33,525 bases of DNA, taken from positions 1 through 33,525 of IMG/VR virus record IMGVR_UViG_3300025647_000144; one strand, written 5' to 3'. Position numbers and translations under genes: made by a program. Numbering within the stretch: the stretch's first letter is position 1; each line of letters begins with the position of its first letter. This DNA comes from a virus. Shown here in pieces: positions 2,412-24,717 of this stretch. The notes beneath the pieces are model-generated. The model searched no databases. It worked only from the letters and a program-made list of their open reading frames with translations, and had not been told where the DNA came from.

Positions 2412-2659
2412 GTGTGACGTTTGCATCCGGCCGAGTTCGGGCCGTCGGTCCGTCGTTGCCGCGCACCACCCCAGTCTCGCTGGACACGGCCGCCTACAAG
2501 GGCGCTATCGTCGCTGGCGAGGATGGCCTTATGCACTACTCCGACGGCACACGCTGGGTGGGACTTGCACCTGTGCTGTCGACGCTGATAGACGCTGGCA
2601 ACGCCGAGACCGACTATACCGGTGGTGCGAAGATTGATCTCGGGAGCGCCCAGACATGA
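2408..2659 (+). CDS. Small tail-fibre-region protein, function unknown
   Basis: An 83-aa protein starting at ATG 2408, overlapping the previous stop by four bases (ATGA), and ending in another ATGA overlap with the fibre gene at 2656. The middle ([26 protein letters not shown]) looks like the short motif seen in many phage fibre proteins, where GxxxYYSDGTxW-type segments precede trimeric fibre domains. A longer in-frame reading begins at 2234, but it would overlap the upstream gene and is not needed. Likely a structural or adaptor piece of the fibre. Confidence 0.55.
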
Positions 2660-3666
2660 CCATCAGTGCCTCGATCTTCCAGCTGTCGCTCAGGGGTGAT
2701 ACGCTTGCGCGGTGGACGTCATTCAACCCTGTACTCGCCGACCGCGAGATCGTGTTGGAGCGAGATACTGGCCAGTTCAAGGTCGGGGACGGGGTGACTG
2801 CGTACCTGAGCTTGCCGTATGGCGGGATCGTAGGGCCGACGGGTCCGCAAGGCGTGTCGCTCAATGTGCTCGGCTCAGTTCCCACTGTTGGTGACCTGCC
2901 CTCGACAGGCAATGACCCAAACGACGCCTACATCGTCGAGGCCGACGGCGATCTGTATGTATGGAGCGGCACTGCTTGGACCAACGTAGGGCAGATCGTA
3001 GGTCCGACCGGACCAACTGGTCCGACGGGTCCGACTGGCCCCACAGGCAACGACTCCACTGTTGCCGGTCCGACTGGCCCCACAGGCAACGACTCCACTG
3101 TGGCCGGCCCGACTGGTCCTACGGGCAGCGACTCCACCGTCGCTGGTCCTACTGGCCCGACTGGTCCTACGGGCAGCGACTCCACCGTCGCTGGTCCTAC
3201 TGGCCCGACTGGTGCGACAGGTGGTGCGTCCACCGTCGCTGGTCCTACTGGCCCGACTGGTCCTACGGGCCCCACAGGTCCAGCGCCCGACACCGCTACA
3301 TACGTCACCCTGACCGGCACCCAGACGCTCACCAACAAGACATATGACGACGCGGTCTTCACTGGCTCAGTCCAAGAAGGGGTCTTCGCCCTGACAGGTA
3401 CGACCCCATCGCTCGATCCCTCCAACGGAACCGTGCAGACCCACACGCTAAGCGGGGCCACCACCTACACCGACGGCTTGGTCTCTGGCGAGGCCATCAC
3501 GCTGATGATCGACGACGGGGCGGGGCAGGCGGTCACGTGGCCCACGACGACGTGGATCAACAACGGCGGCGAAGCCCCCGCGCTGGCGACGACGGGGTAC
3601 ACGACCGTCCAGCTTTGGAAGGTGTCCACAACGCTCTACGGCGCACTCGTAGGGGATGGTTCGTAA
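2656..3666 (+). CDS. Collagen-like tail fibre protein A
   Basis: A 336-aa fibre. Residues 1-60 contain the phage fibre N-terminal signature [19 protein letters not shown] followed by [16 protein letters not shown], as in hyaluronidase/tropism-determinant N-terminal domains that bind the fibre to the tail. Around 70-115 there is a small beta module ([20 protein letters not shown]). Residues 116-209 are Gly-Pro-Thr collagen-like triplets. The C-terminal ~125 residues ([14 protein letters not shown] and on) form a beta-rich tip, the likely receptor-binding part. It is paralogous to the fibre at 6877-8400: N-terminal and DLYVW modules match closely, while the tips differ. Starts in an ATGA overlap and ends in a TAATG overlap with the next gene. 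Confidence 0.8.
3001..3282 (+). repeat. Collagen-like Gly-Pro-Thr repeat tract of fibre A
   Basis: Nine-base triplet units (GGT CCN ACN) occur in tandem, interrupted by NDSTVA, SDSTVA or GASTVA spacers in larger units of about 12-18 residues. The bases 3208-3261 are identical to 7501-7554 in the second fibre gene. Tract length is likely to vary by recombination. Confidence 0.85.
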
Positions 3667-5376: not shown

Positions 5377-5814
5377 ATGCCACATCTGAAGATCACAAAC
5401 GGCCAGCCTGAGATTTACTCAATCGGGCAACTACGTCGTGACAATCCGAACACGTCCTTCCCGAAGTCGCCGAGTGACGCGCTTCTGGCGGACTGGGGCG
5501 TCTACCCCTACACCGTGCAGGATCAGCCGACGGTCGACTACATGACCCAGACGGTCACGCCGATTGCGATCACAGAGGTTGACGGTGCGTGGACCCAAGG
5601 CTGGGAAGTCAGCAACCTGTCCGCCGAGGATGCGGGGCGCAACATCAGGTCGCAGCGCGACAGCTTGCTGCCCCCGACCGACTGGATGGCCCTGAGCGAT
5701 GTCACCATGTCCCCTGAGTGGGAAGTGTACCGTCAGGCGCTGCGCGACATCACCACGCAAGAGGGCTTCCCCTACTCGGTCATCTGGCCGACAAAGCCGG
5801 AGGCCGCACAATGA
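5377..5814 (+). CDS. Tail fibre assembly chaperone-like protein
   Basis: A 145-aa protein with a GGAGG site upstream of ATG 5377. The C-terminal third carries the pattern RSQRDSLLPPTDWMALSD, then WEVYRQALRDITTQEGFP and IWPTKPE, the hallmark of the phage tail assembly chaperone family (Phage_tail_APC type). Such proteins are encoded beside fibre genes and help fold or attach fibres, or form part of them. The N-terminal part (IYSIGQLRRDNPNTSFP) is also typical. It ends in an ATGA overlap with the glycosyltransferase gene, indicating translational coupling. Confidence 0.75.
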   Translation: MPHLKITNGQPEIYSIGQLRRDNPNTSFPKSPSDALLADWGVYPYTVQDQPTVDYMTQTVTPIAITEVDGAWTQGWEVSNLSAEDAGRNIRSQRDSLLPPTDWMALSDVTMSPEWEVYRQALRDITTQEGFPYSVIWPTKPEAAQ

Positions 5815-6875
5815 AAATCGCAGTCTACGCCATCAGCAAGAACGAGGCCAAGTTCGTCGAGCAGTTCTGTGAGTCCGCCAAGGATGCAGACCTGATCCTC
5901 ATCGCGGACACCGGCAGCACCGACGACACTGTCGAGCTGGCCCGGGCCTGCGGCGCAACGGTACCTGAAATCTGCATCACCCCGTGGCGGTTCGACAAGG
6001 CGCGCGACGCAGCGCTCGCGCTCATCCCGCGCGACATCGACGTGTGCATCAGCCTCGACCTTGACGAACGGCTGGAGCCCGGCTGGCGCGAGGAGATCGA
6101 GCGCGTATGGGAGATGGGCAAGACTACCCGGCTCCGCTACAAGTTCGACTGGGGCGCTGGCATCCTGTTCTTCTACGAGAAGATTCACGCCCGCCACGGT
6201 TACCATTGGCACCATCCGTGCCACGAGTACCCCCGCCCGGACGGCCGGATCAAGGAGGTCTACGCGCACACCGACATGCTGCTGGTGAGCCACCACCCGG
6301 ACCCGACCAAGAGCCGGGGGCAGTACATGGACCTGCTGGAGCTGTCGGTGCAGGAGGACCCTGCCTGCCCGCGCAATGCGTTCTACTACGCCCGTGAGCT
6401 GACGTTCGGCCGCCGGTGGATCGACGCCATCGTGGCGCTGCACAAGTACCTCGAGAACCCCGGCGCGAACTGGGCGAATGAGCGGTGCTACGCCATGCGC
6501 ATCATGGCGCAAGCGTACGAGGCGCTGGGCGACTGCGGGCAGGCGCAGGTCTGGCTGGACAAGGCCACGAGAGAAGCGCCGAATACGCGCGAGCCGTGGG
6601 TCGAGCTGGCGGACCTAGCGCGCAGGACAGAACAGTGGCAGTTGAGCTACAAATGTGCTAGGCAGGCGCTGACGATCAAGGACAAAGCCTTGGTCTACAC
6701 GATGGACCCGACTGTCTGGGGGGCACGGCCGCACGATCTCTTGGCGCTGGCGGCCTACCACATCGGAGAGGCAGACGAGGCCGTAGAGCACGGCACGATT
6801 GCAGTGGAGCTTGTGCCACATGACGATCGGTTGAAGCGCAACTTGGAGTTCTACTCCACCGACAAGGCGGCCTGA
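5811..6875 (+). CDS. GT2 family glycosyltransferase with TPR-like C-terminal region
   Basis: A 354-aa protein. The N-terminal half is a GT-A fold family 2 glycosyltransferase: nucleotide-binding strand with [20 protein letters not shown] at residues 33-40, [11 protein letters not shown] (59-69), and the metal-binding DLD at 83-85 in [12 protein letters not shown]. The second half (about 215-350) contains helix pairs with TPR character ([25 protein letters not shown]). Such enzymes transfer sugar from a nucleotide-sugar to protein or glycan. In a fibre cluster it may glycosylate a virion protein or modify host surface sugars to block superinfection; the target cannot be read from sequence. Start ATG 5811 overlaps the previous stop; the alternative start at 5718 would overlap that gene needlessly. 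Confidence 0.8.
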
Positions 6876-6876
6876 T

Positions 6877-8400
6877 ATGCCCGGACCAACACCCTCCTCG
6901 ACTATCGGCTTTGCCCTCCGTGGCGACACGCTTGCCCGCTGGACCGAGTTCAATCCGATCCTCGCAGACCGGGAGCTCGTGTTGGAGACAGACACGGGGC
7001 AGTTCCGGATCGGCAACGGGGTAGACAACTACCTCGACCTGCCCTACGGCGGGGTGGTTGGTCCGACAGGTCCTACGGGCAGCGACTCCACCGTCGCCGG
7101 TCCTACTGGGCCTACAGGTGCAACAGGTGGTGTGTCTACAGTCGCTGGTCCTACTGGTCCGACTGGTGCGACAGGTGGTGCGTCCACCGTCGCTGGTCCC
7201 ACTGGCCCGACTGGTGCGACAGGTGGTGCGTCCACTGTTGCCGGTCCGACTGGCCCGACTGGTGCGACAGGTCCTCAGGGTACGTCCATCAACTTCGTAG
7301 GGTCCGTAGCCACAGTAGGCGCCCTACCCGCGACTGGTAACACGGTCAACGACGCCTACCTCGTGCAGGCTGACGGCGAACTGTATGTGTGGGACGGCAC
7401 CGCATGGGACAGCGTCGGGCAGATCGTGGGGCCGCAGGGTCCTACTGGCCCGACTGGTGCGACAGGTGGTGCGTCCACCGTTGCTGGTCCTACTGGCCCA
7501 ACTGGTGCGACAGGTGGTGCGTCCACCGTCGCTGGTCCTACTGGCCCGACTGGTGCGACAGGTGGTGCATCCACCGTTGCTGGTCCTACTGGCCCGACTG
7601 GTGGTGGGCCAACCGGCCCAACTGGCCCCACAGGCCCGGAACCGGCTACAGTCGCCATCGCGTCACGGGCGCAGGCGCTCGCAGGGTCGAACAACACCAC
7701 GATAATGACCCCGCTGCGGGTGGCACAGGCTATCAGCGCGCGGGTAGCCACGTACGAAACTTTCGAGGCAGATGGTCTTTGGACTAAGCCTGACACAGCA
7801 TCTGATGACGCCTTTGTCCTGATTGAGGCATGGGGCGGCGGCGGGGCTGGTGGGTCAATTCGCACTGTCTCTAATGGGAGTACTTCTGGCGGCGGGGGTG
7901 GGGGATATGTCAGTCGGATATTCCGGCTGGGAGACCTGCCAGCATCGGTGGCAGTCACCATTGGTCAAGGTGGCGTAGCAGGGGCAAACGACACCGCCGG
8001 CACGGACGGCGACAACACCACCTTCGGCAGTCTGCTCACGGCCTACGGCGGCGCGGGCGGCCGCGTGGGGAACGACAACGCCAATGCCCCAACCTCTTAC
8101 GGCGGCGGCCTCTTGGGACAGACCGCCACGGGCGATCAGTATTATACGGGCGGTAAGGGCAATATCGGTGCGGGGTCGGCAGCCTTCATGGGCGGCGGCG
8201 GCGGCGGTGGCAGCAGCATGGTCAGTGGTGCCACGCTGGGCGGAACCAGTGTGGGCGGTGGCGCTGGCGGCGGAGGCGTCCGCGTGGGCACAGCGGGCGC
8301 TGGCATGGCCCCCGGCGGCGGTGGCGGGGCGGCGGCGAACAGCGGAACTATTGGGGGCGCGGGTGCCCGCGGGGAACTGCGCATCATGGTGGTGGGATGA
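6877..8400 (+). CDS. Collagen-like, glycine-rich tail fibre protein B
   Basis: A 507-aa fibre paralogous to the one at 2656-3666. Residues 1-60 ([31 protein letters not shown]) give the tail-binding N-terminal module. Two collagen-like Gly-Pro-Thr tracts (about 62-135 and 185-254) flank a small module ([20 protein letters not shown]) that is also in fibre A. A linker ([22 protein letters not shown]) follows, then a glycine-rich tip from about 295: [31 protein letters not shown] in two blocks, with many GGGGGG runs. This is the glycine-rich receptor-binding domain common on tail fibres. Starts one base after the glycosyltransferase stop; its stop overlaps ATG 8397. Confidence 0.8.
7060..7281 (+). 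repeat. Collagen-like repeat tract 1 of fibre B
   Basis: Tandem 48-base units encoding [16 protein letters not shown] with very few base differences between copies, ending in a GPQGT exit from the triplet pattern. Confidence 0.85.
7429..7638 (+). repeat. Collagen-like repeat tract 2 of fibre B
   Basis: Starts [14 protein letters not shown] and repeats the same 48-base unit as tract 1, ending in [13 protein letters not shown]. It shares a 54-base identical block (7501-7554) with 3208-3261 in fibre A. Confidence 0.85.
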
Positions 8401-8438: not shown

Positions 8439-8948
8439 ATGAAGCCGCTCTGGGAAGCCACACGTGATCTGCACCACGCCTGCGAGGAACACCTCGTGGG
8501 CGCGGCCATGGCGTCCGGCAAGCCGCCCATGCCGTGGTATGCTGATTGGCTCTATGCGATCCATCGCATCCACCACAAGATCGACCCCACGCTGCCGGCG
8601 GCACTGCGCCGCACTGCGCGGTTGGAGGAGGACATCACGGCGACAGGGCTTGTCAGCACGCCAGTGCCTGCCGCTTGTGCGTACGCCGAGTCGCTGGACA
8701 CAGCAGACAAGATCGCCGGTGCGGCCTACGTGCTGACCGGCGCGCACCTGATGGGGGGCGAGATCATGCGCCGCCGGCTTGTGGGGTACCCAACCACGCA
8801 CCTCGAATGGGACGACCGCAAGGTAGCGCTCGAGGAGTTGAAGGTGTACCGTGTCCGTAGTGAGCTTGCCACTGAGGCGCGGGAGTGTTTCGCCGCGCTG
8901 CTCCGCATAATGGATGAGATACAGGAGCGTACCGATGGACGTGATTAA
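8439..8948 (+). CDS. Heme-oxygenase-like protein
   Basis: A 169-aa protein. The start region LWEATRDLHHACEEHL matches the first helix of heme oxygenases, where an EAT-x-x-x-H pattern provides the proximal heme ligand; here H12 is the candidate. The helix AAYVLTGAHLMGGEIMRRRL (96-113) matches the distal helix with its GxxxxGG bend (G101, G106, G107). Active heme oxygenases open heme to biliverdin, CO and iron. The protein is short for the family, so enzyme activity is not certain; other heme-oxygenase-fold proteins do different chemistry. I chose ATG 8439 because GAGGG lies just upstream and homology begins there; ATG 8397 (ATGA overlap with fibre B) would add 14 residues. It overlaps the holin-like gene by 14 bases. 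Confidence 0.65.
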   Translation: MKPLWEATRDLHHACEEHLVGAAMASGKPPMPWYADWLYAIHRIHHKIDPTLPAALRRTARLEEDITATGLVSTPVPAACAYAESLDTADKIAGAAYVLTGAHLMGGEIMRRRLVGYPTTHLEWDDRKVALEELKVYRVRSELATEARECFAALLRIMDEIQERTDGRD

Positions 8949-9160: not shown

Positions 9161-9781
9161 ATGCGGAAGTACAGCGCGCGTAGTCTGAAGAATCTGGATG
9201 GCATCCACCCGGACCTGCGAGAAGTGATCGACCGCGCGCTGCAGGACAGCCCACTCGATTTCGTCGTGATCGAGGGCCTCCGCACGCTGGATCGGCAGAG
9301 GCAGCTGGTCGCCAGCGGCGCATCGAAGACGCTCAACAGCCGTCACCTTACGGGTCATGCTGTGGACCTCGTGCCGATTGGGCCCAACGGCAAGGCGGCT
9401 TTCGACTGGCCGCTGTATGACCGGCTGGGTCCGGCAGTGAAGGCCGCTGCCGAGAAGCTGGGCGTAAAGCTCGTCTGGGGCGGGGATTGGAGCTCGTTCA
9501 AGGACGGGCCGCACTTCGAGCTAGACCGCAACGAGTACCCGCCCGACGACTGGGCGAGCGAGGCCAAGCCGCCGGCTGAGCGCACGAGCCCGGTGCAGTC
9601 CTCGACCATCCAAGCCTCGGCAGTGCAGATAGTGTCCGGCGCAGGTGCCGGTGTTGCCGCTGTTGGTGCGCTTGATGGCACCGCGCAGATCGTGGCGTTG
9701 GCCTTCGCGGGCATCGTGGTCTTGGCAGCCCTCTGGATCATGCGGGAGCGCATCCGGAAGTGGGCGGGAGGCGACCGGTGA
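9161..9781 (+). CDS. M15 family endopeptidase (endolysin) with C-terminal membrane domain
   Basis: A 206-aa protein. Residues 1-125 are an M15/VanY-type L-alanyl-D-glutamate peptidase that cuts the peptide stems of peptidoglycan: the SxHxxGxAxD motif is S60-R-H62-LTG-H-A-V-D69, and the DxxH motif is D115-GP-H118, giving zinc ligands H62, D69, H118 and catalytic D115. A linker follows, then two hydrophobic segments (about 151-168 and 173-194, ending LWIMRERIRKWAGG). This tail makes the enzyme membrane-bound, perhaps a fused holin or a signal-arrest-release type anchor. AGGAAG site before ATG 9161. Its stop overlaps the spanin start (GTGA at 9778). Confidence 0.85.
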   Translation: MRKYSARSLKNLDGIHPDLREVIDRALQDSPLDFVVIEGLRTLDRQRQLVASGASKTLNSRHLTGHAVDLVPIGPNGKAAFDWPLYDRLGPAVKAAAEKLGVKLVWGGDWSSFKDGPHFELDRNEYPPDDWASEAKPPAERTSPVQSSTIQASAVQIVSGAGAGVAAVGALDGTAQIVALAFAGIVVLAALWIMRERIRKWAGGDR

Positions 9782-17190: not shown

Positions 17191-20100
17191 ATGGCCGACG
17201 AGTTCTTTGGAAGTCCAACGGGTAGATCAATGGGCCTCGGCCTCCGGGTTCCGGGTTCCCCCGTTGCGGGGGACCCATCTACGCGCATGGGTCTCGGTGG
17301 CCTGCAGAGCACGCAGGCCGACCCTCTGGTGGCCGGGACGGAGTATGTCCCCGGGCAGTACGCATTGCAATCTGCGCAGCGCCTGAAGGCACCTGACGCG
17401 CAAGCACGGATGCCGGCAGCCTACTTCAACCAAGCCACCAACGAGATGTACGCAGGCGACCGCGCCTTTGCGGCCACGGATGTGCGCTCTGCGCTGGAGA
17501 CGGCGCAGGCCCCCGTGACTGTTGCGCCGCAGGGGGCGGGGTGGGTGCCCCTGCCCGCAGCTTCCTACAGCTCCTACCTCAAATCACTGTCCGAGCGCCG
17601 CAGCCCCGGCGAGCTGCTAGGCCGGGGGGCTAAGAACGTGGCCTATGGTCTCGGCACGCTGCCGGGTACGGTTGCCTCGCTGGCGGGCTTTGAGGAGACG
17701 GGCGCTGCTCTGCGCGCACCCGTCGAGTCCTTCCTCGGTGACTCCGAGAACGAACAGTTGCGGTCCTCGCTCATCGCTGAGAACAGCACGCTGTGGGAGA
17801 AGATCAAAGACGCCAGCGTCGAGTCCATCCCATTCCTCTTGACCTCCTTCGCCGGCGGCTTAGGCGGCGCTGCCCTTGCGGGACGCGGGGTGGGGTTGAC
17901 CGCTGAGGCTGCCTTGGCAGCCAAGGCCACTGGCGCTATTCGCGGTGCAACCTACGTCAACCTGCCGACGCACCTTGCGAGCATGTACGACGCGGCTGTG
18001 CAGAATGGACAAGACCTATCTAGCTTGGACACCAAAGCGTTCATCCTCGGCGGGGCGCTGGCTAACACGGCGATCGAGCGGTTCGGCATCGAAGGTCGGC
18101 TGTTCTCCCCCGCGGTCAAGGACGCAGTGACCAAGTCTGCGATGCGCACTGTCCGAGACCGACTGGTTACTGGCGGCCTTGTTGGTTTGCAGGAGGCTGG
18201 CACCGAGGTCTTCCAGACGGCTACGGAGACGTTGCTGTTCGACCCCGAAGTCCGTAGCAAGTTCACGCCGCAGGACTGGAAGACGATCCTGCCCTACGCA
18301 CTGGAGACCTACGGTGAAAGCTACCTCGTCGCGGCTGGCGCCGGTGCGCTGCTCGGCGGCGGTATCGGTACTGTCCTACCGCAGGGCGCAGAAGCGCCGC
18401 GCACCAAGACGCAAGTCGATACAAGCACGCCGCTCGACCTGAACACCACTGCGACTGGTCAGGTCGCCGAGAAGGAGGCACCGTCTGATCTGTACGGCCA
18501 GCAGTCCTTCCAGCCACTTGGCCTGCCCTACATCCCGGGTGCCGAAACGATCGGTGCACGGCCCGTGGCCCCCATAGGTGGCGAGCAGGTGATCGACCCC
18601 AATCGGCCGCTGACCCTACAGCAGGTCGGACTGATGCGCGGCGCGACTCAGGGCCTGCGCCCCGAAGACCGTATGGCGGGCAACATCACTGTCCCCGGCG
18701 GCGAGCGTGCCGCCGTCCTTGAGGGTGAGGTGTTGCCGCCGGCGCCCCCCGCTGCCCGACTTCGCCGTGGTCTGCCGCCGCCCTCACCTGTTGCTGGCGC
18801 CTTGCCCGCGCCCGACATGGCCGCAGCTGACTTCACTGCTGGCGCCGAGGGTGTCACACCGACGGGCGCTACTCCTGCGGCGGCTCCTACCGCACAGGCC
18901 GCGCCTGCTCAGCGCCTTCGTGTTGGTGCACCCCCCGCTACTCCACTGGTGACCGGGCAGACCACGGACACTGCGATGGGTAATCAGCTGGCTGCCCAAC
19001 TGGCTGCCCGTAGGGCCGCAACCCAGCAGGCAGAAGCACAGGCTGCGGCCGAGGCTGAGACCGCACGGCAGGCCCAGCAGGCTGCAGGCGCACGCGGTGC
19101 AGAGATCGAGACGGCCTACGCGCAACGCGCGGCGCAGGCTGCGACCATGCGGACGGCCGAAGAACAGGCTGCCTACGACCAGCTGTCAGCTGAGCAGAGG
19201 GCCTATGTGGACGCCGACGCCACATGGGAGACCTTCCGCCCGCAGGACGGCAAGAAGCAGAGCGGCGTGACGCTGCGCGACCTCGCACCCAAAGCGCAGC
19301 GCGAGTGGGTGGCCGCAGTCCAACAGGGTGAAGCAGACCAGACGCTGTACGAGAAGTTTCGCACCCGCCGCCCGGTTGGCAGGGCTGCTCCCCTTGTGGA
19401 TGTGCCCACCGTCCTGCAGCCCAAGAAGGTGGCGCCGGCGCCGAGGCCCAAGGCGCCGCCGAAGCCCGCTGTGCTCACCAAGAAGCAGCGGGCTGTGGCC
19501 GAGCGCTTCCTTGCGCTGGCTCCCGAGCAACAGGCTGCAGTGGTGCGGGCACTTGGTAGTACCGAGGCGGAGACAATGGCGCTGTTGCGCAGCGACCCCG
19601 ATGCGGTGAACGCCGCGATTGACAGCGTGGTCACACCGCCGGACACCACACCGCCGGACACCACACCAACGGGCACCAAGGCCGCCGCGCTTCGGGCCGG
19701 TGCGGCACCGAGACCCGCAGCAGGGGGGCTCAAGCGTGGCGCTACGGCGCCTAAGCCCCGGGCCGAGGCAGCGCCGGAGGTGGCACCCACACCCGTGGCA
19801 CCTGAGCCCACGCCCGAGCCGGAAGCAGCACCTGAACCCACGCCCATGGCAGAGGTACAGGCCACCGCGGTGGAGGCAGCACAGGCGCCGACCAGCGGGC
19901 GCAAGCCGAGGACGCGGCAGCCGGTCGAGGCCGTCAAGGCTGTGGACGAGTTGGATGCTGACATCAACGACTTCATCACAGTGCTCGGCGCGTCTGAGGA
20001 TAGGGCCAACCGCAACGCTGCCATATCGGGACTGCAGCTCGCGCTGGTGGACACGGCGATGACGCCCAAACTTCGCGTCAAGGTCAGGAACTACCTCGCC

Positions 20101-23100
20101 AGCCTCGGGACTGAGGCGGGTGCCGCCGGCCTCTCGGATATGACCGGGGTAAATACGGCCGTAGCCGATCTGTCCGAAATGATTGAAGCGTTTAACCTTG
20201 CGCCCGGCCCGATCACCGGCACGTGGCAGAACAAATTTCGCGACCTGATTGTCGAGGTAAAGAAAGAAGACCCGGATGCAAGGCTCGGTGATGAAGGTCC
20301 GCTACTCAGAAGTTTCGCAAAGTCCGACACCGACACTAGCCCCAACATCCAGAAGGGGAGGCTGGTGCCCCGTAGCGGCTTCTCAGCCCCCGCTGCCCCC
20401 GCTGCCGCCGATCCGACCGGCAGGCCCTTCCTCGCCAACTGGAACACCATAGACGGGGCTGTCGACCTCGATGGCAAGTCCGTCACTCCCATGGCTACGG
20501 GTCGGGTGCAGCTTCTGGTGCGCAACTTTGTGACAAAGCTGGCCCGGCCACCCAAGGTGACTGTGGCGCGCAATCAGGCCGACCTCAAGACCAAGAACCC
20601 GGGGCTCTACGCCCGCGCTGTGGCAGCCCGGACGCAGGGTGACTTCGACACCGCCCAAGCCATGGGGTACTCCTTCGGCGACGGCGAGGTGATCGTCTTC
20701 TCTGACCGCATTGCCACCGAGCAGCAGCTGAGCTTCGTCCTCGCCCACGAGACGCTGGGCCACTACGGGCTGCGGGCCATCATGCCTGCCGGCAAGTTCG
20801 ATGCCCTGATGGAGCTGATCTACAAGGGCGACTCGCGCACACAGCGGGCTGTGGACGCAGCCATGAGCACGAACCCAAGCATATCGCGGGCTGAAGCTGT
20901 GGAGGAATACCTCTCTGACTACGCCGCCGTGCTGGACACCAGCATCGTGGCGCGCGTGTGGAACGGGATCAAGGGGTTCCTGAACAAGCTAGGCATCCGC
21001 ACCGGCGACGAGATGACCCGCTACCTGCTGGATCAGGCCCGGCGGTACGCGCGCACCAAGACTGGCGCCGCATTCGATGCGCAGGCCGTCGGCAGCCGCT
21101 TGCATGCGGTCGAGTCCTTCGGTGGCACGGGTCGGTTCTCCACTGCTCCGGCCCTCCGCGACGTGAACATCTCCGCTGGCCTGCTGCGGGACGAGATCGG
21201 CGGCCTCCCCATGAGCATCGAGGAGGGCTGGGCCTACATCAAAGGCCAAGGCGTCAACTCGGTAACCACATGGGACGAGTTCAAGGCCAAGTTCCTGAGC
21301 CTCACCAACTTCCGCGCCCGCCAGAACCCCGGACTGGCACGGCTGGAGGAGCTGATCGACGAGACCCGCAACATATCCATGTCGCTAAAGGTCAGCTACA
21401 ACGAGCGCCTGCGCGACGTACTGAACCGCGCCATCGCGGGCGAGGTGGGTGGCATCTCGGACAAGCAGACCGGGACGGTCAATCAGATGCTCTATGCCGG
21501 TCAGCGGGCGGCCGTGGCGAAGACCCGACAAGTAGATGATCTGGGCAACGTCCCGCTGTTCACCATGGTGGATGGCAAGCTCACCAAGAACACTGGCGAG
21601 ATCGAGCGTCTGCGTGCCATCGGGCACCGCAGCCTCGCTGAGATGCGCGACGGGTTCGAGTACGACGTGACCTTCGACGAGGCAGGCCAGACCATCACGA
21701 AGAAGGAGCGTTTCGCCGGGGTCAGCGGGCTGACTGCGGACAGCATCGAGTGGAAGGGCTACACCAAAGTCCGTGAGGCGATGGACGACATCGAGCTTGA
21801 GCTGCTGAAGGCCCGATACGACGGCTCCCTGCAGGAGCGCGACCTTGCGTTCCGCCAGATCGCCGCGACCGTACCCGAGGGGGAGTTGAGCGCCGCCGAG
21901 CGAGAGGTCATGACCACGCTGTCGCAGACCTACGGCAACCTCTACACATCGAACATCACGCAGGATGCAGCCGGCCGGGCTATGATGGATGTGGACTTCC
22001 AGACATATGCCAACGACATCCTGCGCACCGCCAACAGTGCACTGATCGGCAAAGACTCGGATCGCTTCGACACCCTGCGCCAACTGTTGGTTGAGGACCG
22101 GGTCTTCTTGGACAAGGACGGCACGGAGCGCCGGACTCTGTCCGCTGTCATGCAACCCCAGATGGCCGACGACCTGATCGTCAAACTGCAGGCGTTCAAG
22201 GCGCGCGCAAAGCTGGGCGAGAACAGGTACGTGGTGCAGGACAAGATCAAACAGATCATCATGTCCGACATTGCCAGCAAGGATGCCGACAAGTCCACCA
22301 AGACTACCATCGTCACTGGCTACACACCCATCCTGCGCGACGGCAGATTCCAGATGCGGGTGGAAGCCTACGTCGGCGGCAAGACCGTGCGGCTGCAGGA
22401 CAGCTACCGCGAGCAGCTGGTCTACTCCCAGTTCGACTCGGCGTCCGAGTCCATGGAAGCTGTGCAGAAGACGAACACCCTATTTGGCGCCACCGAGTTC
22501 GAGGTCATGGCCTATGACCAAGACGCCGGGCAGTACACGCTGCAGAAGGTGAAGCTGCGCGCTGTCTCGGAGCGGGCCCTCGACGCCATCGCCGCGCCGC
22601 CGGAGTTGAACCTGAACGAGTTCGTTCGTGGCCTGCGCCAGTTTGACATCACCCTCACCCCCGAGAAGATGGAAGACGTCATCGTTGCCCTGACCCGTCA
22701 GAACAGCAACGCTCGTAACCGGCTGGAGCGTTCGTTCACTCCGGGCGCCAAGATGGATGGCGTCATGGCAACCATGCGCCACATCGAGAGCCGCGCCTCT
22801 ACCATCGCCAAGGTGATGATGCGTCCGCGGCTGGCCGAGCTCATGGATCGCAGCATGGAGTCCACCAACCGGCTGTGGAACGGCGATGCCAAAGCACTGC
22901 AGGACCTGAAGGACAGGGCCGCCTCGCTGGCTGCCAACCCGACGGCACGCAAGGAGGAGATCGCGGACGCGCAGCGGGCCTACGAGCAGTACGCCTACAT
23001 GTACAACGAGACCAACCCGGGCGGGGGCAAGCCGCGCAGGACCAACCAGTTCTACAATGAGGCGGCCAACACGGTCTCGTTCCTCGATGGGAACAAGAAT

Positions 23101-24717
23101 GTGGACGAGTCGGACTTCGGGTCTGGTCCTATGGTGTCGCGCATCCGCGCCGCCACTTCCATGATGCAGCTCGGCGGCTCTGTCGCCACCGGCGCGCTGA
23201 ACGTGTTGTCGCTTGTGACCAACGGGGTGCCGTACCTGTCCAGCTACAACCCCAAGACCGGCTTCGGTGGTGGGTTCGCGGTCGGCAATGTTGTGTCAGC
23301 GATGTCCATGGCAGGGAAACAGGTCGGCGCCCCGGGTGTCACCAGCCGCGAGGTCAACACCGCCGAGTTCTACGACAAGGTCTCTACCGATACGTCGCTG
23401 CAGAAGAAGTACGGGATCAACGCCCGCGAGGCAGCGTTCATCGCGCAGGAAATCCGTGATGGGGCCATGATCCCGGCCCAATCCAACGCGCTGGTCGGCA
23501 CGGCCCGTGGCCGTACCTCCTCTGGCTTCGCCCAGAAGTTCCTCGATGGCTGGATGTGGACCTTCAACGTCACGGAACAGGCCAGCCGCCGGACACTGGG
23601 GCTCGCGTCCTACCGGCTGGAGTTCGCGCGCAAGCTCGCCGCCGGCAACAACGAGGCAGATGCAGACGCCGCCGCCCGGGCCTTCGCCGTCAAGGCGCTG
23701 CAGTACACCATGGGGGAGTACTCCGTCCTCAACCGTCCGCCGGCATGGCGGTCTGGTATCCAGTCCTTCATGTACATGTACAAGGTCTTCCCGACCACGT
23801 CGGTGCAGATGTTCATGAACCTGTCGCGCAACGGGAAGCTCGGCATGGTCGCCGGGATTGTCCTGCTCAGTGGCATCGCAGGTCTGCCTTTTGCTGAGGA
23901 CTTGGAGGACTTGGCCGACACGCTGGCACAACGCCTCAAGATCACGGGGTGGCAGGGCGCGAGGTTCGAGACAGCCAAGTTCATCGACAGCATCCTGCCG
24001 GGTATGTCCCCTGCACTGCTCAAGGGGTTCGTCAACGAGTACGTCCCCGCCGACATTGCGGGCCGCACGTCGCTGGGCAACCTGCTGCCGGGCACCGACA
24101 TCCTGTTAGCTGGCAGCGATCCGGCACGCGGACTAGGGGAAATCTTCGGCCCCGCACCGTCTATGCTGATCGGCACAGCCGGGTTCGCGGCGGACCTCTT
24201 GGCGCTGCCGTTCTCCTCCACGGTCAGCGTGGAGGACGTGGTGCGGGAGGCGCCCATCACAATGCTGCGGGCACTGGGGGATACATCTGCCTACCTGCAG
24301 ACAGGCGCCATCGTGGACCGGCGTGGGTACGTTGTATCGAACGAGATGACCGCAGGCACCGTGCTCGCCCGGGCGCTGGGCTTCTACCCGGCTGCGGCGG
24401 CCAAGCAGTACGAGATGATCCGGGCAGCCAAGCGCATGACGGACTACCAACGCGAGGTTGCCACCGGCTTTCGGTCAGCGTGGATCAGGGCGACAATGCG
24501 CAGCGACCGCGCCCGCGCCCGTGAGATCGAGGCAGCCGTGGCCGACTGGAACGCCGCATCCAAAGGGACAGCCATGGAGATCAGGAACTTTGTCCAGAAC
24601 TCACGCCGCGCCCTGAAAGAAGCGCGGCGCCCAGCCATGGAGCGGACACTACGGTCCGCCCCTGATGCAGCTGAGCGTGATCTGCGCAGCTTGGTGGACC
24701 TGTGGACGTCGAACTAG
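17191..24717 (+). CDS. Giant polyvalent-type ejection protein with zincin-like metallopeptidase motif
   Basis: A 2508-aa protein. Residues 1-200 are low complexity; hydrophobic stretches follow at about 205-260 (SIPFLLTSFAGGLGGAALAG). Residues 500-900 are Ala/Pro/Gln-rich linkers and coiled coil (TTQ-like AQAAAEAETARQAQQA). Around 1150-1260 lies a peptidase-like domain: FVLAHETLGHYGLR with H1186, E1187 and H1191, then EAVEEYLSDY near 1237, which may supply the third metal ligand. A long helical second half follows, with a further hydrophobic segment near 2219 (GMVAGIVLLSGIAGLPF) and a C-terminal region resembling large polyvalent-protein-associated domains. Such proteins are packaged and injected to act on the host at the start of infection. 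Last gene of the plus block; its stop overlaps the convergent primase-helicase stop. Confidence 0.7.
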   Translation: MADEFFGSPTGRSMGLGLRVPGSPVAGDPSTRMGLGGLQSTQADPLVAGTEYVPGQYALQSAQRLKAPDAQARMPAAYFNQATNEMYAGDRAFAATDVRSALETAQAPVTVAPQGAGWVPLPAASYSSYLKSLSERRSPGELLGRGAKNVAYGLGTLPGTVASLAGFEETGAALRAPVESFLGDSENEQLRSSLIAENSTLWEKIKDASVESIPFLLTSFAGGLGGAALAGRGVGLTAEAALAAKATGAIRGATYVNLPTHLASMYDAAVQNGQDLSSLDTKAFILGGALANTAIERFGIEGRLFSPAVKDAVTKSAMRTVRDRLVTGGLVGLQEAGTEVFQTATETLLFDPEVRSKFTPQDWKTILPYALETYGESYLVAAGAGALLGGGIGTVLPQGAEAPRTKTQVDTSTPLDLNTTATGQVAEKEAPSDLYGQQSFQPLGLPYIPGAETIGARPVAPIGGEQVIDPNRPLTLQQVGLMRGATQGLRPEDRMAGNITVPGGERAAVLEGEVLPPAPPAARLRRGLPPPSPVAGALPAPDMAAADFTAGAEGVTPTGATPAAAPTAQAAPAQRLRVGAPPATPLVTGQTTDTAMGNQLAAQLAARRAATQQAEAQAAAEAETARQAQQAAGARGAEIETAYAQRAAQAATMRTAEEQAAYDQLSAEQRAYVDADATWETFRPQDGKKQSGVTLRDLAPKAQREWVAAVQQGEADQTLYEKFRTRRPVGRAAPLVDVPTVLQPKKVAPAPRPKAPPKPAVLTKKQRAVAERFLALAPEQQAAVVRALGSTEAETMALLRSDPDAVNAAIDSVVTPPDTTPPDTTPTGTKAAALRAGAAPRPAAGGLKRGATAPKPRAEAAPEVAPTPVAPEPTPEPEAAPEPTPMAEVQATAVEAAQAPTSGRKPRTRQPVEAVKAVDELDADINDFITVLGASEDRANRNAAISGLQLALVDTAMTPKLRVKVRNYLASLGTEAGAAGLSDMTGVNTAVADLSEMIEAFNLAPGPITGTWQNKFRDLIVEVKKEDPDARLGDEGPLLRSFAKSDTDTSPNIQKGRLVPRSGFSAPAAPAAADPTGRPFLANWNTIDGAVDLDGKSVTPMATGRVQLLVRNFVTKLARPPKVTVARNQADLKTKNPGLYARAVAARTQGDFDTAQAMGYSFGDGEVIVFSDRIATEQQLSFVLAHETLGHYGLRAIMPAGKFDALMELIYKGDSRTQRAVDAAMSTNPSISRAEAVEEYLSDYAAVLDTSIVARVWNGIKGFLNKLGIRTGDEMTRYLLDQARRYARTKTGAAFDAQAVGSRLHAVESFGGTGRFSTAPALRDVNISAGLLRDEIGGLPMSIEEGWAYIKGQGVNSVTTWDEFKAKFLSLTNFRARQNPGLARLEELIDETRNISMSLKVSYNERLRDVLNRAIAGEVGGISDKQTGTVNQMLYAGQRAAVAKTRQVDDLGNVPLFTMVDGKLTKNTGEIERLRAIGHRSLAEMRDGFEYDVTFDEAGQTITKKERFAGVSGLTADSIEWKGYTKVREAMDDIELELLKARYDGSLQERDLAFRQIAATVPEGELSAAEREVMTTLSQTYGNLYTSNITQDAAGRAMMDVDFQTYANDILRTANSALIGKDSDRFDTLRQLLVEDRVFLDKDGTERRTLSAVMQPQMADDLIVKLQAFKARAKLGENRYVVQDKIKQIIMSDIASKDADKSTKTTIVTGYTPILRDGRFQMRVEAYVGGKTVRLQDSYREQLVYSQFDSASESMEAVQKTNTLFGATEFEVMAYDQDAGQYTLQKVKLRAVSERALDAIAAPPELNLNEFVRGLRQFDITLTPEKMEDVIVALTRQNSNARNRLERSFTPGAKMDGVMATMRHIESRASTIAKVMMRPRLAELMDRSMESTNRLWNGDAKALQDLKDRAASLAANPTARKEEIADAQRAYEQYAYMYNETNPGGGKPRRTNQFYNEAANTVSFLDGNKNVDESDFGSGPMVSRIRAATSMMQLGGSVATGALNVLSLVTNGVPYLSSYNPKTGFGGGFAVGNVVSAMSMAGKQVGAPGVTSREVNTAEFYDKVSTDTSLQKKYGINAREAAFIAQEIRDGAMIPAQSNALVGTARGRTSSGFAQKFLDGWMWTFNVTEQASRRTLGLASYRLEFARKLAAGNNEADADAAARAFAVKALQYTMGEYSVLNRPPAWRSGIQSFMYMYKVFPTTSVQMFMNLSRNGKLGMVAGIVLLSGIAGLPFAEDLEDLADTLAQRLKITGWQGARFETAKFIDSILPGMSPALLKGFVNEYVPADIAGRTSLGNLLPGTDILLAGSDPARGLGEIFGPAPSMLIGTAGFAADLLALPFSSTVSVEDVVREAPITMLRALGDTSAYLQTGAIVDRRGYVVSNEMTAGTVLARALGFYPAAAAKQYEMIRAAKRMTDYQREVATGFRSAWIRATMRSDRARAREIEAAVADWNAASKGTAMEIRNFVQNSRRALKEARRPAMERTLRSAPDAAERDLRSLVDLWTSN
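17253..17276 (+). other. GC-rich hairpin in the 5' coding region of the giant protein gene
   Basis: GGGTTCCCCCG (17253-17263), loop TTG, CGGGGGACCC (17267-17276): ten base pairs with one bulged T. It encodes residues about 21-29 (VPGSPVAGD). No T run follows, so it is not a typical terminator; it may affect translation or RNA stability. Confidence 0.45.

Follow-up and report, generated by a model that had tools for sequence, protein, structure and literature searches.

A stand-alone heme-oxygenase-like protein family of phages with a plant-type Ala-His pair in the distal helix

The heme oxygenase-like gene and its surroundings

The stretch of viral DNA analysed here, which we call the window, comprises 33,525 nucleotides (positions 1 to 33,525 of IMG/VR record IMGVR_UViG_3300025647_000144). 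A gene for a heme oxygenase (HO)-like protein lies on its forward strand, between a tail fiber gene and the lysis genes, the location given in the original prediction. The features considered in this work are the following:

6877..8400, + strand, collagen-like (GPTGPTG) tail fiber, the upstream neighbor (genomic context)
8439..8948, + strand, heme-oxygenase-fold protein of 169 aa, with H12, E16, Y97, A102-H103 and G106-G107 (open reading frame, alignment, predicted fold and dN/dS)
8472..8474, + strand, codon of H12, presumed to be the proximal ligand of heme and aligned with His25 of HO-1
8745..8747, + strand, codon of the invariant H103, which corresponds to the catalytic Asp140 in HO-1 and to His150 in the soybean enzyme (PMC7948506)
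8914..9159, + strand, 81-aa holin-like or small membrane-type protein, overlapping the 3' end of the HO gene (context)
9161..9781, + strand, M15 peptidase endolysin (context)

The open reading frame at 8439-8948 (+) starts with an ATG preceded by a weak GAGG-type site, and encodes 169 residues followed by a stop codon. The same frame has an alternative opening 42 bases upstream, at 8397, but in the homologues the start corresponds to 8439. Between the window gene and its close relatives dS amounts to 0.7-1.4 and dN to 0.04-0.11, and purifying selection on the gene is strong (dN/dS about 0.06-0.1). This large excess of dS over dN, together with the conservation of the protein, indicates a real and selected gene. 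The two motifs from which an HO had been proposed, EAT-x-x-x-H and GxxxxGG, are found as E6-A7-T8-RDL-H12 (EATRDLH) near the N-terminus and as G101-AHLM-G106-G107 (GAHLMGG) in the middle of the chain.

The gene order in this part of the window is collagen-like fiber, HO, 81-aa membrane-type protein, M15 endolysin and Rz-like spanin. For the endolysin there is a match to PHROG 5115 (E 5e-22), a PHROG with the label 'ferredoxin' that is probably mislabelled or contains fusions. There are two collagen-like (GPTGPTG) fiber genes, at 2656-3666 and 6877-8400, the second of which encodes no histidine, and between them, at 5718-6875, lies a gene for a glycosyltransferase with TPR repeats (PHROG 13126), which could glycosylate the Gly-Pro-Thr repeats. 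The largest gene of the window is a single open frame of 2508 aa at 17191-24717. Similarity of the internal virion protein to its counterparts in Burkholderia Bcep22-like phages (BcepMigl, DC1) and in Microcystis phages makes the window look like a podovirus.

A protein family found only in viruses

Relatives of the protein, with 47-91% identity, were found at 61 loci on viral contigs of IMG/VR, and a second scan with the alignment as query gave 67 loci; pooling both scans yielded 46 distinct proteins, on records of up to 110 kb. A T4-type capsid gene (gp23) is present in at least five of the carriers, whereas the window is podovirus-like, which indicates that the HO gene travels between unrelated tailed phages. 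One family member (L043:5989-6669) is extended at its C-terminus by about 55 residues, among which Trp and acidic residues are abundant.

No relative above chance was obtained when 50,697 phage records were searched by tblastn with the window protein and a second family member (L117), and none was found in about 85,000 GTDB genomes scanned with exact motifs, a type of scan that distant cellular relatives could escape. The pattern GAHLMGGE gave 48 matches in GTDB, none of which is a clear relative by profile, and in 398 genomes of one phylum there was no family member, the one weak match being an ordinary BphO-type HO. NCBIfam names no family member as an HO, and neither NCBIfam nor PHROGs gives the family a name. 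Thus, the family is previously unrecognised and, among the data searched (IMG/VR contigs, 50,697 phage records and GTDB), exclusive to viruses.

In an alignment of 37 phage sequences the invariant residues are H12, E16, H45, D49, Y97, L99, A102, H103, G106, G107, E108 and F151, while R58 and the basic stretch R111-R113 that follows the distal helix are near-invariant, and D65 is invariant or nearly so. The apparent exception at H12 and E16 (L058/L115) is due to a frameshift in the contig, and the corresponding LHHACEEH is found in the next frame.

Homology to heme oxygenases

The AlphaFold2 model of the 169-aa protein has a pLDDT of 95.2 and a pTM of 0.91. In a Foldseek search of the PDB all of the best 50 matches are heme oxygenases, and when these hits were re-ranked with VIA-align (a list from which families that also match may be absent), 167 of the 169 residues aligned with rat HO-1, with a Z-score of 19.2. 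A search of the viral structure library BFVD gave good matches only to two proteins of uncultured phages, annotated as heme oxygenase or heme oxygenase-like, with 20% identity.

At the sequence level, the window protein alone scores below the cut-off of 23 bits for the Pfam Heme_oxygenase family PF01126 (12.4 bits, E 0.14), and this family is matched by 26 of 33 family members (best E 2.9e-6). Human HO-1 is the first, albeit weak, match of the family profile in the PDB (E 0.12). A profile-profile alignment by hhalign, with HOs from bacteria, cyanobacteria and cyanophages combined in one profile, extends over the whole length with a probability of 98.7 and an E-value, for this single comparison, of 2.5e-15. 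In a maximum-likelihood tree, which has long branches and from which plant sequences were left out, all phage proteins fall together (98/94) and are separated from the HO-1/cyanophage and BphO groups. Fold and family membership, as judged from the model and the alignments, are therefore well supported. The original prediction of an HO-like protein, against which an unrelated fold or the lack of a heme pocket would have counted, agrees with this full-length predicted fold and with a pocket that, judged by alignment, contains H12 at the place of the heme ligand of HO-1.

The predicted heme pocket and its plant-like distal helix

The pocket residues were paired through the alignment of the family profile with human HO-1, extended by hand along ungapped helices, so that the geometry described here derives from alignment. 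H12 pairs with the iron ligand His25 and E16 with Glu29, Y97 with Tyr134 (the propionate Tyr), R58 with Arg85, D65 with Asp92 and F151 with Phe207, and G106-G107 are in register with the Gly143-Gly144 kink; roles of several of these HO-1 residues have been described (PMC5623701). H45 and D49 sit at the places of Tyr58 and Glu62. R111-R113 fall at the place of the basic residues Lys148-Lys149 of HO-1, and are likely to form a redox-partner surface. The places of Lys18 and of the invariant His132 of HO-1 are taken by Trp5 and Ala95, respectively, and the counterpart of Arg183 is uncertain.

A surprising difference lies in the distal helix, where every one of the 37 phage sequences in the alignment has H103 and L99 instead of Asp140 and Arg136 of HO-1, with A102 also invariant. 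The assignment of GxxxxGG to an HO distal helix thus holds for the motif and the glycine kink, but the distal motif is not of the usual HO type. It is in register with that of plant HO-1, YNIYFAHSAGGRMIGKK (7cka, 7eqh), against YVLTGAHLMGGEIMRRR in the phage protein: an Ala-His pair occupies the Gly139/Asp140 places and the glycine pair follows two residues on (A102-H103-L-M-G106-G107 versus AHSAGG in 7cka and 7eqh). In soybean HO-1, which is an active enzyme, Ala149-His150 build an alternative hydrogen-bond network (PMC7948506), and in the Arabidopsis enzyme water serves as the distal ligand and His206 takes part in the network (PMC9433822). A His at the Asp140 place is therefore compatible with catalysis, and the interpretation that it must abolish activity was dropped as the main reading. 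Plant HOs are absent from the PDB matches of the family profile, and the fold comparison with the plant enzyme 7eqh gives a Z-score of only 13.5; the shared Ala-His motif may therefore be convergent.

Partner genes

The original prediction had seen no bilin reductase, and a search for the ferredoxin-dependent bilin reductase family (PF05996) gave the same result in 48 records, comprising the window and 47 related records, many of which are fragments (0/48). Known phage HOs are accompanied by bilin reductases, and pigment synthesis is accordingly taken as their role; the absence of such a partner from the HO gene here makes iron release, or heme removal, the probable outcome instead.

In one record (L115, IMGVR_UViG_3300000385_000009), a gene for a 244-aa FAD/NAD-binding reductase of the ferredoxin-NADP reductase (FNR, Fpr) type, at 7202-7936, ends a few bases before the start of the HO gene, which is split there by the contig frameshift. 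FNR relatives on other viral contigs (L203-L205) have no HO beside them, so the FNR-HO pair rests on this one record. FNR can feed electrons directly, without ferredoxin, to AtHO-1 and LiHO (PMC9433822). As for a ferredoxin partner gene, the only candidates were two sub-threshold, stop-riddled matches, which were rejected. A ferritin/Dps gene is present in 6 of the 48 records, and in five of them it lies about 2 kb downstream of the HO gene. Dps/ferritin-like genes (PF00210) of T4-like contigs are found at L073:10085-10528 and at equivalent positions in L076, L078, L083 and L086, and a further record (L109, G439) has two ferritin-type matches. The FNR and Dps links, seen in few records, suggest redox use and iron handling.

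Proposed function and alternative explanations

We consider it reasonably probable, from the sequences and the predicted model, that the protein is an active stand-alone HO of a new, virus-only clade, whose purpose is probably iron release or heme removal. Catalytic activity is likely on the same basis, and iron release as the purpose is our best guess and no more. In such an enzyme, host heme would be bound between the first helix, in which Glu16 would hold the ligand His12, and the distal helix, which is kinked and carries Ala102-His103 and Gly106-Gly107. His103 and Leu99 would occupy the place of Asp140 and Arg136, with His103 probably relaying protons as His does in plant HO-1, and His45 and Asp49 would stand in for Tyr58 and Glu62. 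With O2 and electrons from host ferredoxin or ferredoxin-NADP reductase, the heme ring would be opened to biliverdin, CO and Fe2+, and iron would be set free from host heme late in infection.

The invariant pair of histidines also accommodates a different function, in which the protein binds heme but has no oxygenase activity, the iron being ligated by both His12 and His103, and serves to store, carry, sense or buffer heme, or acts as a weak peroxidase. Lightning et al. reportedly described, in 2001, bis-His ligation and peroxidase activity in the Asp140His mutant of human HO-1. This replacement strongly reduces the activity of the human enzyme (PMC7948506), but plant HO-1, an authentic HO in which water is the distal ligand, has this Ala-His pair as well (PMC7948506, PMC9433822). 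The near-invariant basic residues after the distal helix, and the FNR gene adjoining the HO gene in L115, also speak against this function, and we regard a heme protein devoid of oxygenase activity as unlikely. Unlikely, too, is the broader proposal that this virus-only branch of the HO fold uses its H12/H103 pair either as a bis-His heme protein or as an HO with altered ring opening, for the control of heme and iron during lytic infection by unrelated phages. It is very unlikely that the protein no longer uses heme, having turned into an oxidase with a non-heme metal (of the diiron type), or into some other enzyme, that works through His45, Asp49, His103 and Glu108. The motifs H45-x3-D49 and H103-x4-E108 are indeed invariant, and in some relatives with the HO fold, or of the ribonucleotide-reductase-like type, these helices bear metal ligands (PMC5623701). 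Yet ordinary bacterial HOs of the BphO/HemO type have residues corresponding to His45 and Asp49 (for instance FHKAVD in L178, FHRSID in L179), neither the proximal heme His nor its Glu varies in the family, and all top folds are heme oxygenases rather than HO-like diiron oxidases or thiaminases. The remaining diiron ligand positions of ribonucleotide reductase (PMC5623701) look unoccupied in the phage family, in a cross-superfamily register that is uncertain.

Other alternatives concern the purpose of the protein. An active HO could be valued for CO or biliverdin, as signal, antioxidant or feedstock for host bilin enzymes, or for the destruction of host heme and the resulting shutdown of respiration. 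The chemistry would be the same as in the preferred explanation, and the late position beside the lysis genes of the window fits it; but the lack of a bilin reductase in all 48 records, and the Dps gene near the HO gene in some carriers, favor iron handling. No finding truly separates these outputs, and we judge this alternative quite unlikely. An action of the protein on the neighboring tail fiber, or assembly with it, is extremely improbable. Of 41 loci, 25 do have a fiber-like ORF whose end lies no more than 2.5 kb upstream, podovirus-like and T4-like genomes being both represented, and in the window a glycosyltransferase gene adjoins the fiber gene; but tail-fiber regions are general insertion hot spots, and the other 16 loci have no such neighbor, including a T4-like group, where RNase H-like, L,D-transpeptidase and Dps genes are found instead. 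Metallation of the fiber by iron released by the HO was rejected, since the collagen-like fiber next to the HO gene of the window has no histidines for iron binding.

The presence of an HO family in a Bcep22-like podovirus and in T4-like phages, with no bilin partner, suggests that the breakdown of heme itself (for iron, CO or heme removal) is what has been selected. The long-discussed interference of phages with host iron becomes testable through one small gene, and the family provides a compact natural protein in which a plant-type His replaces the catalytic Asp.

Comparison with known heme oxygenases

The HO fold itself was already known, and what is new is a stand-alone, virus-only HO clade with a plant-type distal pair. 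Compared by fold, its closest viral relatives are the BFVD proteins A0A6J5KN38 and A0A6J5RJ96 (uncultured Caudovirales, 'heme oxygenase(-like)'), which have a similar length and TM-scores by query length of 0.86-0.89, but only 20% identity. Phage-borne HOs in non-cyanobacterial settings are also known from the vHemO of hemO-pcyX/pcyA-alaS cassettes (pelagiphages and CB_2), and the freshwater phage HO of CB_2 is biochemically active (PMC11480375). These cassettes include a bilin reductase and often alaS, whereas no bilin reductase was found in the 48 records of the present family, a contrast that concerns gene content.

The mammalian, cyanobacterial and cyanophage HO-1 and HmuO (PF01126) share with the phage protein the full-length fold (Z 18-19), the proximal His, Glu29, Tyr134 and Gly143-144. 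They have 200 or more residues, with Asp140/136 and Arg136/132, whereas the phage family has 169 residues with His and Leu at these places and forms a separate clade; the cyanophage copies carry GDLSGG. The proteobacterial BphO/HemO-type HOs (PigA, NmHO) have in common with the family the H-x3-[DE] of helix 2 and the YV-x-x-G that opens the distal helix, and W124 and F151 have counterparts in them. In contrast, their distal motif EGS-x-LGG is one residue shorter than TGAHLMGG, and they lie on a separate branch of the tree; a motif scan and tblastn searches for viral HOs of the BphO type gave no match.

The distal pair is shared with plant HO-1 (soybean GmHO-1, 7cka; Arabidopsis HY1/GUN2, 7eqh), which has the HO fold in common with the phage family. 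Both contain Y-x-[IL]-x-x-A-H-x-x-G-G (YNIYFAHSAGG versus YVLTGAHLMGG) and both are devoid of Arg136 (PMC7948506). The plant protein differs in being a longer, plastid enzyme that feeds bilin synthesis, with little overall sequence similarity to the phage family.
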